Shown here in pieces: positions 47,855-53,889 of a DNA stretch of 64,000 nucleotides (its first letter is position 1; each line of letters opens with the position of its first letter). The stretch lies in assembly GCA_900291925.1 (NCBI GenBank), contig UWYS01000003.1, positions 1,054,001 through 1,118,000 on the forward strand, in the 5' to 3' direction. This DNA comes from Thecaphora thlaspeos (Eukaryota > Basidiomycota > Ustilaginomycetes > Urocystidales > Glomosporiaceae). The translations under genes and the position numbers were made by a program. Under the pieces are notes generated by a model, which ran no database searches, had not been told where the DNA came from, and was given only the letters and a program-made list of their open reading frames with translations.

Positions 47855-49291
47855 CTACATACGCTCCCAAATGTCTCCTCCTCCTTCCTCACCTTGCTCC
47901 AGGCCTTCCTCGTCGATGCAAGGTATCGGCACAGCATAGACACCGAAACACGGACCCTCTTTCACCTTTGCTCCGAGCTGACTGCCCATCGGCTTGTTTG
48001 TCTTACTGGTCCTCATCCTACTCATGAGAAACTTGAGTAGAACGCTGGAATCCTTCTCGGCCGTGATCGGGTCGACCGAGGTGAGGAGACATCGTTGACA
48101 TCTTGCTACCATTGCCAGTCGCGCCTTCTTTCGAGATAAAGAGGCCGGGGGTGAGACTACTGTGATTTGATCCCAGGAATCTTCTGAAAAAGGCCGAAAG
48201 GCCTCGGTCCCCGAGAGAGAGCGGAGGACGATGTTGGGTCGGAATCGGATCATGTTGAGCTGTCGAGATGAAGGCCAGAGGGTGGCATTGAGTGCGCCGA
48301 TTGGATGACCGCCACTTCCGTCGCCCCCTTCGCCGCCGGGGAGGGATGCTTGGACGGCATCGTGGATTTGCTCCTCGATCGCATGGAGAGACTCGACTGT
48401 CGATACGAGAAGAGGGTATTCGTCTGCAAACGCGATGCCCTGTGGCTTGATCAGGTCGCTTTTTGCCTTGCCGCTCCACGAGGCGATGTCGGACGGCGGT
48501 TTGTAGATGGGAAAAGCGGAACGATGGACGTCCGAGTGGTAGTCGAAGTATATGAGTTCGACTGGGTAGCCGAGGAATCGACTTAGCCAGTCGCTTGGTG
48601 ATGGCGACGACGACGAGGCCGATTGGACGATCCGACCATCTGCATGGTCTCCCCACATTTCTACCTTGGGGAGCAGCTTCCAGCTTTCCATCTGCTCTCG
48701 AGTAGGTCGAAGCGGCATTGCGATCGTACCGAAGTCATCGGCGCTTTGGGCGTGTGGTGAGATCGAGAGACGGAGGAGGTTGTCCTCCTCGTCGATGAAA
48801 GGTACGACAAGCGTGAGACGGGAGTCTTGGCGCAACGCTACCTTCTGCCAGCCCTTCTGTTGTTGCTCTTGGTAGCTACCGTCGGCCATGCGTTCATGCC
48901 GAGTGACAATCATCCACTTTCTATCCAGCTCCGAGCCCTTTCTGGTGAGTTGTGCGGCGTCTAGCTCTACAGCCGCACAACTCTTGATGGGATAGACGAG
49001 GATGGAGTGAACCTGTGCGATGTTCTCTTCCTTGAGGTCGTCGGCATGATGGTGGATGCTGCGCTTGGTGGTGTGCGGGCAGAGGTAGTGTCGGATGAGA
49101 CCGATGCTGAGTATGAGGAGGAAGACGAGCAGCTGCGCCTGGATGCGTTTGGGTGTGGTGGACTCGGCCAGCTTTTCCTGGAGCGAGGAAGAGGCCGCGA
49201 GAAAGGGGATCTTGGCCGGCACCGAGTGTGCTTGCTGCGCCGTCTCGGAGCGGTCCGATGTGAGGAAAGAGGCCCTGATGGCGGTCGACAT
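47855..49291 (-). CDS. Membrane-anchored MOSC-domain protein (mARC-like)
   Basis: Probable molybdenum-cofactor enzyme of the mARC (amidoxime-reducing component) group, or a related MOSC protein. Intronless, 478 residues. A single hydrophobic stretch at about 52-68 (AQLLVFLLILSIGLI) would anchor it, as in mARC proteins of the outer mitochondrial membrane or ER. The MOSC N-terminal beta-barrel follows: VHSILVYPIKSCAAVELDAAQLTRKG, LDRKWMIVT. The MOSC domain includes RFRPNIVLR, and CQRCLLTSVDPITAEKD matches the mARC molybdenum-binding Cys neighbourhood (C.LT..DP.T). The C-terminus GPCFGVYAVP is also family-like, then an acidic tail. It is head-to-head with the broken acyl-CoA synthetase. Confidence 0.85.
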   Translation of the reverse strand: MSTAIRASFLTSDRSETAQQAHSVPAKIPFLAASSSLQEKLAESTTPKRIQAQLLVFLLILSIGLIRHYLCPHTTKRSIHHHADDLKEENIAQVHSILVYPIKSCAAVELDAAQLTRKGSELDRKWMIVTRHERMADGSYQEQQQKGWQKVALRQDSRLTLVVPFIDEEDNLLRLSISPHAQSADDFGTIAMPLRPTREQMESWKLLPKVEMWGDHADGRIVQSASSSSPSPSDWLSRFLGYPVELIYFDYHSDVHRSAFPIYKPPSDIASWSGKAKSDLIKPQGIAFADEYPLLVSTVESLHAIEEQIHDAVQASLPGGEGGDGSGGHPIGALNATLWPSSRQLNMIRFRPNIVLRSLSGTEAFRPFSEDSWDQITVVSPPASLSRKKARLAMVARCQRCLLTSVDPITAEKDSSVLLKFLMSRMRTSKTNKPMGSQLGAKVKEGPCFGVYAVPIPCIDEEGLEQGEEGGGDIWERM

Positions 49292-49937
49292 CGGATGTGA
49301 CCCGCGAGAAGTTGTGATGCAATCAAGTCGGGTCCAGTCACGGTGGTGCGCTGCGGTGCGGCGCTCTCGCCAGGCCGTTCAGAGGTCTCGGAAATTCCGG
49401 ACATAAACGCAGCGTGCGGGCCCACAAGCGGCTTTAAGCGCACGGGCGAGGTGGAGGGGGCCGTGCATGGGCGAGGGCATGTCACTGCCGTCTCGTGCCT
49501 TGCGCTTTACCCCGCACCCGCCTCGCGCGGGGCAGAGCCAAGCAAGCTGAGGTCGACGGCCAATCCAGCTCAGCTGCTGCATCGGATGGTTATGGACTTA
49601 CCAGGTCGGTGTCGGCGTCTCTGCGCTTACCGCGCCCGAGGCGGAGCGAGCGAACAGGCCAACGGGCGAGGGATGGCTGACCTTCTGACCTCGTCTCCTC
49701 GTCGCCCGGCGCTTTGCCTGTTCGCTCCCAACTTCCCCTGCCTCTTCCTTCCTCCTCTCCTCTCGCTGCTCCGTCCGGATCATCCGCACCCAGAGCCTAT
49801 ATAAAGCCAAGGATCCGCTCGCTTGGATCATGTCGCGTCTCTATCCCCTCTCCCGCTCGCCTTCCTGAAGCACTTTCCCGCGGACTGTTCCTCAGAGCCA
49901 AACCTCCCTCGTTCCGCCCCTTCAACCTATCCCCGCC
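49292..49937. other. Divergent promoter region MOSC gene/acyl-CoA synthetase
   Basis: 646 bp. It contains the TATATAAA box at 49798-49805 and a CT-rich leader (49720-49760 and 49845-49930) for the plus-strand gene. No gene seen. Confidence 0.5.
49798..49805 (+). promoter_or_regulatory. TATA box of the acyl-CoA synthetase locus
   Basis: TATATAAA, 133 bp upstream of the ATG at 49938. The core promoter looks intact although the gene body is broken. Confidence 0.55.
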
Positions 49938-52578
49938 ATGTCGTCGTCATCCGACTTCGCCCGCTTCCATCCCCAGGTCCAGATCCACCATCAGTCGATT
50001 CACCACAAGAACGACTTCTGGCTGCGCGCTGCCTCAAAGATCCACTGGCACCAGCCCCCCATTGTCGCCTATGGCAAGTCAGCCAGCCAGACAGCCGCCT
50101 ACCTCGACCCAGAGGGCAAGACGTGGTTCCCCGGAGCGCAGCTCAACACCTGCTACAATGCCGTCGACCGACACGTCTACGCTCCGCAGCACGACGCATC
50201 GTCGCCCGTCACCGCATCCCCCCACACCCCACACCTCGCCCTCGCGCCCAGTGCCCACCGCACCGCCCTCCAGCACGTTTCGCCTCTCTCGTTCCAGTCG
50301 AGGCAGGCCCGCTCCATCTTTTACCTCGAGCTGCTCGAACAGGTCCAGATCGTCGCCGGCATCCTCCGCCACAAGGGTGTAGGCAAGGGCGACGCTGTCG
50401 TCATCTACATGCCCATGGTCCCCGAGACCTCGATCGCCATGCTCGCCTGCGCGCGCATCGGCGCCGTCCACTCGGTCGTCTTCGGCGGATTCGCTCCGCG
50501 CGAGCTGGCAAAGCGGATCGAAGACTCGCGCTGCAAGATCGTCATCGCCGCCAGCTGCGGACTCGAACCAAAGGGGCGGGTTGCCTATAAGCCTCTCGTC
50601 GATGAGGCGCTCCAGGTCTCGCAGCACAAGCCAGAGGCCGGCCTACTCTTCCTCCGCAGGCACACCATTAAAGGACATGCGCCGCCAAAGTGTGCGCGCA
50701 AGGGACCCGCCGGACTGCCGGAATGGGACTGGGAGCTTGAGAACGAGCTAATAGTCAACAACAAGGACGGACGGAGCCCGTGCTAGGAGTGCGTTCCCGT
50801 CGCAAGCGAGGATCCCGTCTACAGTGAGTTCCGAGGTGCAAGAAGGGACGGCGCTTAGAGCGTGGCAAATGGCTTGGAGAGAGCGACTACTGACTCGTAC
50901 GCTCGTGTCGTCTGCTTCCGCCCGACCTTGCCAGCCATCTACACGAGCGGCACCACGGGCGCGCCCAAGGGTGTCTGCCGGCTCTCGGGCGGCCACATCG
51001 TCGCGCTACGCTTTTCGATCGAGCACACCTTTGGCATGACGCCCAACGACGTGATGTTCTGCGCCTCGGACCTGGGCTGGGTTGTCGGCCATTCCTACAT
51101 CCACTACGGACCGCTGCTCCTCGGCGCGACGTCGATCGTGTATGAGGGCAAGCCTATCGTCCCGGATGCGAGCATCTGGTGGAGGATCTGCTCCCAGTAC
51201 AAGGTCACCCAGATGTTCTGCGCGCCCACAGCGCTCCGCGCCATCGTCGGCCTTGACCCGGACGCCAAGCTGATGCGAGGCCCGAATATTGACCTGCGCA
51301 GCCTGAGGACCCTCTTCCTGGCTGGCGAGCGATCCGAGCCGCAAATCGTCAGCCGCTTTGAGAAGCTGCTCAAGGAGTTGGCGGCGCCTGGCGCCCAAAC
51401 CAATGACAACTTCTGGTCGAGCGAGTCCGGATCACCCATTACGGGCCTAATGCTTTCGTCTGCCTTCGGGCCCCTGCCCGCCCGCCCGGGCTCCGCGGGT
51501 ATGCCAATGCCGGGCATGGACGTCGTTATCGTTGACGACGAGGGCAACGAGCTGCCACGTAGCAAGATGGGCAACCTTGTCCTGCGCACCCCGCTCGCGC
51601 CCAGCTTCCTCGGTGGCCTGTGGCGGAACCCGCAGCGATTACGGTCAAGCTACTTTGAGCGTTTTGAGGGAAAGGGAGGCTGGTTCGAGACCGGCGACCA
51701 GGGCGTCATCGATCCGGACGGCTACGTCAGCATCCTCTCGCGCTCGGACGACCTGATCAATGTCAGCGCCCATCGGCTCGGTACGGGCCTCATCGAGCAG
51801 GTCGTCACCTCGCACCCGGACGTCGTCGAGTGCGCCGTTGTGGGCGCGCCCGACCGGATGAAGGGCCAGTCGCCATTTGCCATCGTCGTCGCGCACAGCC
51901 GTGTCGCCGTCGCCTCGGACGGCAAGCCGCAAAACTCGATCCATCACGACTCAGCCAAGACGATGCTCAAGAGCATCAACGACCACGTAAGCGAACCGTG
52001 ACAGCTTCAGTTGAGATCATCACCAGTTGAGATCAGCGACCGCGGCCTACTCACCCTTCTTGCCAGCGGCGGCATTCTCCACCGCCTGGTGCAGGCTCCT
52101 CCTCAGCGTCTTGCCGCTCCTCGTCTTTGGGAGCTTCTGTGCCTCAACCAGCCCGGAGAGCTGGGCGATGGGGCCCATCTCCTTACGGACCACGTAACCT
52201 CGTCCGGATCGGCTTTCTGTTGATTGCCGGGACCGAAGACGCCCCCATCGAGTGAGTAGCCCTGTGCGGCCTTGAGCGAGTTCCGCTGCCGGCCAGGCTT
52301 TTCCGCGCCTCTCCCCGAGTGCCTGCTATCACTGGCCTCGGTCAACGGTCACGGACCTGACCACATTTCCTTCCCTCTTCCTCCACTCATCCACCCTCCT
52401 TTCCTCCTCCACAACCTCAATCGCCACCACCATCATCATCACCGTTTTCAGCTATCCTCCCACCATCGAGGACAAGGACGTCATCCAGATCGTCAAATCC
52501 GCCATCGACCAGTACTTCGACGCCCTCCACAGCTCCTCTGGCAACTCCAACTCTGCCTCGTTCGGTAACGATGCCACC
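49938..52578 (+). pseudogene. Disrupted AMP-forming acyl-CoA synthetase (acetyl/propionyl type)
   Basis: ANL-superfamily ligase of the ACS/ACSS3 type (acyl-AMP, then acyl-CoA). Readable pieces: 49938-50823 (FYLELLEQVQIVAGILRHKG, GAVHSVVFGGFAPRELAKRI), intron 50824-50934, then 50935-51986 (TIYTSGTTGAPKGV P-loop, WFETGDQGVIDPDGY, SRSDDLINVSAHRLGTGLIEQVV, ending KSINDH). Lesions: an in-frame TAG at 50784-50786, just before ECVPVASEDPVY, with the frame intact on both sides; and loss of the plus-strand continuation after NDH, because the A10 segment (VRKEMGPIAQLSGLVEAQ, then LPKTRSGKTLRRS with the catalytic Lys) is encoded on the minus strand at 52190-52055. A final exon from 52452 (YPPTIEDKDVIQIVKSAI) is again on the plus strand and runs into the MDR gene in frame. 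No single transcript can give a complete enzyme from this assembly. Confidence 0.75.
51987..52190 (-). other. Inverted block carrying the A10 exon of the acyl-CoA synthetase
   Basis: The minus strand of 52190-52055 encodes 45 codons plus one base of the expected A10 region and ends at a perfect donor (G|GTGAGT). Reversing about 51987-52190 would join GACCAC (codons for Asp-His, 51981-51986) directly to GTCCGTAAGG (Val-Arg-Lys), exactly on a codon boundary. The ends are approximate. GACCACGTAA occurs at both 51981-51990 and 52188-52197, and CAGTTGAGATCA is repeated at 52008-52019 and 52024-52035. Confidence 0.7.
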
Positions 52579-53889
52579 ATGTCCCCCTCCACCTCACTCC
52601 AGCTTCCCCCGGGCGTCAAGAGTAGCATGAAGGCCCTGCAGCTTGAGAAGCCTCCGGGCGAGCAGAAGAAGGGCCAGCGTAACCTCGCCATCGTCCGCGA
52701 CGTCCCCACGCCGATGCCGACGTCGGATCAGGTGCTGGTCAAGGTGATTGCAGCCGGCTTTAACCGGCGCGACGAGTGGTCGATGGTCGACGCGTACCCT
52801 GGCCTGATCTACAAGAACGCGACAATGGGCTGCGACGCCGCCGGTGTCGTGGTGGCGCCGTCTTCCGACTGGGAGATGGAGAACCACCATCCGCAGAAGC
52901 TCGTCCTCGTCGTCCCGACGCGGGGATGGGACTCTGACCCGGACGGTCCCGAGGCCGAGCTGCCCGGCGTCACCGATGCCCAGCGGACCAATGGGCTGGG
53001 CGGGAAAGGGTTCGGCATCCTCGGCGGAACCCGCCCGACCAACGGCATCGGCACGTTTGCAGAGTACATCGCCGTCGAAAAGGACCACATCGTTCCGGCG
53101 CCCAAGCATCTCACGGCCGAGCAGGCCAGCACACTGCCCTGTGCTGTCGTTACGGCTTATCGGTGAGTCATTTGCGCAGCGACGTGAGCCCTAAGGAGTC
53201 CACGTAGGGCGTGCTTTACTGACGGACCCCACTCCTTTTACTTAACCCCATCCTCGTATCTCGATGCGACCCGCAGCGCCCTGTTCACCAAAGGACGCGT
53301 CCAACGGGGCCACAACGTCCTGATCACGGGCATCGGCGGCGGCGTCGCCCTCCTCGCCCTGCACATGGCCGTCGCAGCGGGTGCCAACGTCCTCGTCACT
53401 GCGGGAAGCCAAGCCAAGCTGGATCGTGTCATCTCCCTTGGCGCCAAAGGTGGAGCAATCTACAAAGACGCCTCCTGGTCCTCGACCATCTCTTCCCAGC
53501 TGCCCCAGTCTCGACCCTTCCTAGACAGCGTCATTGACTCAGCCGGAGGCGAGATTGGCGCAGCGGCCGCCAAGATGAAAATGAAGCACGGAGGTAAGGT
53601 TGTGATTTTCGGTATGACGGCTGCCCCCAAAGTGACGGTGACGATGAGAGAGGTGTTGAAGAACGTCGAAATACTCGGATCGACCATGGGGAGCAGAGCC
53701 GAGTTTGTAGCGGCGGTCAAGTTTATCGAGGAAAAGAGGATCGTGCCCGTAGTGGATACCGTGTTGGACGGATTGAAGAAGGCGGAGAGGGGATTCGAGT
53801 TGCTCAGAGAGGCCGATGCAAGGAGTGGTGGCAAAGTTGTGATTCGCATCGACGCGAGCGGGAAGAATGGCGTCAAGAGCAAATTGTAG
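52579..53889 (+). CDS. MDR-family (zinc-type alcohol dehydrogenase-like) oxidoreductase
   Basis: Medium-chain dehydrogenase/reductase resembling quinone or enoyl reductases; it would use NAD(P)H. Exons 52579-53162 and 53277-53889 (114-bp intron, phase 2) give 398 residues. N-terminal GroES-like domain: MKALQLEKPPGE, DQVLVKVIAAGFNRRDEWSM, MGCDAAGVVV. The Rossmann fold has ITGIGGGVALLALHMAVAAGANVLVTAG and VIDSAGG; HGGKVVIFGMT follows. The Cys/His ligands of the catalytic zinc are not evident (FNRRDEW replaces the usual CGSD), so it is probably a zinc-free reductase. The ATG at 52579 has a strong CACCATG context; MKALQ at 52627 is an alternative. The same frame is open upstream to 52452 through the tail of the acyl-CoA synthetase. 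Confidence 0.85.

Follow-up and report, generated by a model that had tools for sequence, protein, structure and literature searches.

An apparent 204-base in-place inversion and an in-frame stop in a predicted synthetase–dehydrogenase fusion gene of Thecaphora thlaspeos

RESULTS

Gene content of the locus

The window analyzed here is a stretch of 64,000 nucleotides of Thecaphora thlaspeos DNA, drawn from an assembly of 20.6 Mb in 32 contigs. From position 49938 the plus strand carries a gene encoding ACAS_N and AMP-binding domains, both of which score above their Pfam cut-offs. The top NCBIfam models for this gene are propionate--CoA ligase and acetate--CoA ligase, and both fall below their cut-offs; the better of the two, propionate--CoA ligase, reaches 505.2 bits where 955 is the cut-off, with a query that lacks the C-terminal part. 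The gene appears from its domains to be like those for propionyl or short-chain acyl-CoA synthetases.

Its nearest relative is PFL1_03597 of Pseudozyma flocculosa (P0002), to which the synthetase half is identical at 655 of 744 residues. Exon 1 contributes 253 identical residues out of 293 (49938-50816 against residues 2-294) and exon 2, aligned without gaps, 322 out of 349 (50940-51986 against residues 299-647). There are three other ACAS_N matches in the genome. A paralogue was considered as a possible replacement for this gene and rejected; apart from the gene itself, the strongest genomic match to exon 2 is 37% identical.

A MOSC gene adjoins the synthetase gene, and its best relative is PFL1_03596. 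The two P. flocculosa genes are consecutively numbered and share the same listed longest contig of 869508 bases, so that gene order is probably conserved. The MOSC neighbor supports orthology of the synthetase gene with PFL1_03597. The second-nearest species judged by the MOSC protein is Thecaphora frezii. The genome contains two Sec10-like loci (C3:1086824-1089548 and C4:478413-480733), one of them inside the window. A repeat or an RNA gene was considered as the cause of the rearrangement and rejected: no tandem arrays were found at 48-56 kb, and the whole window contains no Rfam match over gathering score and no tRNA.

Table 1. Features of the locus, in window coordinates
Feature	Position	Strand	Basis or remark
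MOSC gene	47855-49378	-	Best relative PFL1_03596
Exon 1 of synthetase	49938..50823	+	ACAS_N and start of AMP-binding; GTGAGT donor follows
In-frame TAG, codon 283	50784..50786	+	Trp in relatives
Exon 2 of synthetase, ending KSINDH	50935..51986	+	Likeness to P0002
10-base direct repeat GACCACGTAA, left junction	51981..51990	+	Perfect match to right copy
Inverted segment, 204 bases	51987-52190	-	Order in relatives; breakpoints uncertain by 2 bases
Reversed 5' part of intron, GTGAGT at its start	51987..52054	-	68 bases
Reversed coding piece, 45 residues, with A10 lysine motif PKTRSGKTLRR	52056..52190	-	42/45 identical to P0002 residues 648-692
10-base direct repeat GACCACGTAA, right junction	52188..52197	+	Perfect match to left copy
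3' part of intron, left in place	52191..52238	+	48 bases; putative acceptor AAG, from P0002 KKDAPID
Putative 13-base exon ACGCCCCCATCGA, coding for DAPI(D)	52239..52251	+	Compared with P0002 GKKDAPIDYPPT
Putative intron GTGAGT...TTTTCAG before YPPTIED	52252..52451	+	Phase as in P0002
Exon with synthetase C-terminus YPPTIEDKD, then ADH_N without a stop between	52452..53162	+	Pfam, P0002
Last exon, ADH_zinc_N, open to stop	53277..53889	+	Pfam, P0002

A segment in reversed orientation

The first-pass annotation had proposed that synthetase-like coding stops on the plus strand immediately after KSINDH (51986) and that its continuation lies on the opposite strand. Both statements hold. Beyond KSINDH the plus strand reads VSEP followed by a stop, while the minus strand translates from 52190 to 52056 as VRKEMGPIAQLSGLVEAQKLPKTRSGKTLRRSLHQAVENAAAGKK, which contains the lysine motif. 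In blastp searches with this reversed piece, 120 listed relatives gave 114 matches at E ≤ 1e-3, the best being 4e-24. Five of the six that do not match are shorter models (441-561 residues), ending before or outside the reversed stretch, and the remaining one (P0016) has a divergent end stretch. The AMP-binding_C profile is split by Pfam in the same region, with positions 2-37 on the plus strand and 50-76 on the minus strand, where the score of 22.2 bits is under the cut-off of 24.5. No complete AMP-binding_C domain carrying the A10 lysine is found in the reading direction of the gene. The splice donor that had been noted on the minus strand is also present, as GTGAGT at 52054-52049 following the reversed coding piece.

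Comparison with related proteins, akin to a check suggested in the same annotation, bears this out. The A10 stretch is in line in all 11 aligned smut-type proteins, and YPPTIED or FPPTIED comes next in the six that are modelled further. When the three plus-strand frames of 51987-52190 were compared with the relatives, the best E values were 0.033 and 6.9 for two of them, and the third gave nothing up to 10. No further copy of the region or of the segment was found, each giving one match in the assembly. We thus find a segment that is reversed between colinear flanks and present in single copy, as in an in-place microinversion. Inversion in place is supported by the relatives, by synteny and by copy number. 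Its length of 204 bases, on a codon boundary, is as originally estimated, with some latitude in the position of the ends. Two bases (GT/AC) are common to both breakpoints, and the segment could be 51987-52190 or 51989-52188, or could lie midway, one base from each.

To the right of the segment, the gene resumes on the plus strand with YPPTIEDKD at 52453, and P0002 continues beyond its 45-residue stretch with GKKDAPIDYPPTIEDKD. Comparison of the two suggests a putative 13-base exon, preceded by a putative AAG acceptor and followed by a further putative intron. The phases agree, with the G left over before the reversed donor combining with AC to encode D, and GA combining with C to encode D again. 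The reversed segment would therefore end inside an intron, 68 bases of which are reversed and 48 remain in place. Within the reversed intron part, CAGTTGAGATCA is present twice, 16 bases apart (52008-52035). The small exon and further intron are absent from the first-pass annotation, as are the in-frame TAG and the fused dehydrogenase described below.

The junctions

The two junctions carry perfect copies of a 10-base direct repeat. When inversions of random 204-base stretches of the window were imagined, one in 20,000 reached 10 bases, and among 20,000 random pairs of points 204 bases apart, with no inversion, 0.07% shared at least 10. The test was picked after the repeat had been seen, and the value of 1 in 20,000 comes from the more favorable of the two controls. 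There is no inverted-repeat pair of at least 9 bases with arms at both breakpoints. Between the two ends no ungapped inverted match is longer than 6 bases (CGTAAG). Among 5,000 random pairs 8.8% do as well, and inverted matches at the ends are thus at chance level. The direct repeat is not explained by a plain joining of two breaks. Serial template switching, in which some bases were copied from the first joint, could account for it; it could also be due to chance or to an older repeat in the intron.

A stop codon in exon 1, and the rate of change

Codon 283 of the synthetase is TAG, at a position occupied by tryptophan in 11 out of 11 aligned relatives and in two more distant ones. The inversion is thus accompanied by a further disabling lesion in the same gene, as in a pseudogene.

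Changes specific to each lineage were counted at columns invariant in outgroups, for which we used the full fusions besides P. flocculosa (P0006, P0008, P0009, P0010 and P0011), excluding the other five of the 11 aligned proteins. Of 543 such columns in the synthetase half, 15 have a change unique to the window and 14 a change unique to P. flocculosa. The corresponding numbers are 8 and 3 for exon 1, and 5 and 9 for exon 2. The dehydrogenase half has 10 against 5 in 232 columns, made up of 4 against 2 in 123 and 6 against 3 in 109. There is therefore no measurable relaxation of constraint in the synthetase half (15 against 14 of 543), and if this half is dead it died recently. The result counts against an old, fixed pseudogene. 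It fits a young pseudogene and, equally well, a gene that is intact but has an error in its consensus.

The dehydrogenase half

A single frame carries YPPTIEDKD, ADH_N and, past one intron, ADH_zinc_N, and it is open throughout. Its two exons are identical to P0002 at 193 of 234 residues (698-931) and 161 of 202 residues (934-1139). Six of the 11 aligned smut proteins are modelled as fusions of 1,089-1,139 residues (P0002, P0006, P0008, P0009, P0010 and P0011), the synthetase–dehydrogenase fusion in these relatives being that of predicted gene models. Other arrangements are found. Two standalone relatives (P0122 and P0123) begin with MKALQLE, and the dehydrogenase of Ustilago trichophora, modelled alone, has this N-terminus. 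Ceraceosorus guamensis has synthetase and dehydrogenase as separate proteins, on contigs of unequal size. In T. thlaspeos an internal start, for example the ATG at 52627, may allow separate production of the dehydrogenase half.

Three Malassezia proteins that consist of the dehydrogenase only (P0130, P0141 and P0155) are named propionate--CoA ligase in public records, a name possibly inherited from fused relatives. The T. thlaspeos genome has one MmgE/PrpD match, and propionate metabolism may persist.

DISCUSSION

We consider that the locus is best explained by a recent local inversion together with a stop codon, whereby the synthetase half has become a young pseudogene and the dehydrogenase half is still open; we would put the probability of this at about three in four. 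On this explanation the gene-breaking inversion is real and unusually clean, but it is a known kind of event. The first-pass annotation had left a choice between decay, polymorphism, a switchable segment and an assembly error. Decay is favored among these because the same gene has an in-frame TAG, and the switch is rejected for want of inverted repeats at the ends and of a second orientation in the assembly.

The chief rival, which we regard as unlikely, is a fault of assembly or consensus, with the chromosome carrying the segment in the usual direction. The absence of relaxed constraint in the synthetase gene would be expected on this basis, as would the conservation of the reversed piece itself (42/45 residues). 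However, another such fault would then be required in this gene to explain the TAG. The five pieces of Sec10 in the window are all on the plus strand, and of 12 AMP-binding_C matches elsewhere in the genome none was seen opposite to a neighboring synthetase match. Eleven are on the same strand as their synthetase neighbor, eight of these assigned by a nearby AMP-binding match (14 of 28 candidates scored) and three by a synthetase match; the twelfth, C14, which scores below cut-off, has no partner. The two breakpoints also do not carry the arms of any inverted repeat of at least 9 bases. We infer that the inversion is biological in origin rather than a fault of assembly.

There is also a small probability that the inversion is a young segregating variant that splits the fused enzyme, with the synthetase being lost, the dehydrogenase becoming a gene in its own right and some transcripts skipping the segment. 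Skipping is central to a further, quite improbable explanation in which the inversion is tolerated. A GTAAGC donor lies exactly at the left junction (51987), and if spliced to a CAG at 52296 the frame would be open into the dehydrogenase, generating a synthetase–dehydrogenase fusion that lacks the lysine. A scan gave two donor–acceptor pairs that keep the frame, one of them free of stops. The upstream TAG would still truncate the product at residue 282, however, the acceptor has no independent support, and the splice pair was picked after the data were seen.

Programmed flipping of the segment, turning the synthetase on and off, has very little in its favor. The left end of the segment is on a codon boundary and there are short repeats on the junctions, but the junction repeat is direct and not inverted, the longest ungapped inverted match of 6 bases is no better than chance, the assembly contains no second orientation, and the TAG would block the protein in either state. 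The idea that the minus strand carries separate genes or a chance similarity can be dismissed, given an E value of 4e-24 over 45 residues with colinear boundaries, no other copy found in the assembly, and the colinear order in the relatives.

Returning to recent inversion and decay, the course of events might have been as follows. Two nearby breaks rejoined backwards, or a short template switch during replication, would have inverted about 204 bases of a single-copy gene, running from the last part of exon 2 through the first half of the intron that follows. The sense strand would thereby have lost a splice donor and the motif with the catalytic lysine. With the TAG in exon 1, the synthetase half would be left as a young pseudogene, and the dehydrogenase half could be produced separately, for example from the internal ATG mentioned above. 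The mechanism of joining, the order of the two lesions and the expression of the dehydrogenase are the parts of this scheme that go beyond what is directly seen at the locus.

An apparently recent microinversion, with breakpoints placed within 2 bases, is a usable case for the origin of small inversions in fungi. In addition, one half of a fused enzyme may be dying while the other is open, and this makes gene fission by decay testable.

The locus may be compared with several known systems. Short-range template switches in great apes, as described in PMC7954356, make a reverse-complement stretch locally, within tens to hundreds of nucleotides, and in the majority of cases the outcome is a single inverted repeat. 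The T. thlaspeos segment is likewise a local reverse complement, but by that description it differs in being present once, with a direct repeat shared by its junctions. PFL1_03597 and the other smut fusions have the same order of pieces in their proteins, and PFL1_03597 has the MOSC neighbor too; they differ in having the A10 stretch in line and tryptophan in place of the stop. The small reversed segment resembles microinversions, a known category in which a small segment is reversed in place. Among literature titles and the openings of abstracts we recognized no report of such an inversion in a fungal gene, or of an inversion of this gene. Unitary pseudogenes are likewise a known category, and the locus resembles them in that the gene is present in one copy and carries more than one disabling lesion. 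It differs from them in the nature of one lesion, which is neither a base change nor an indel but a clean inversion in place.
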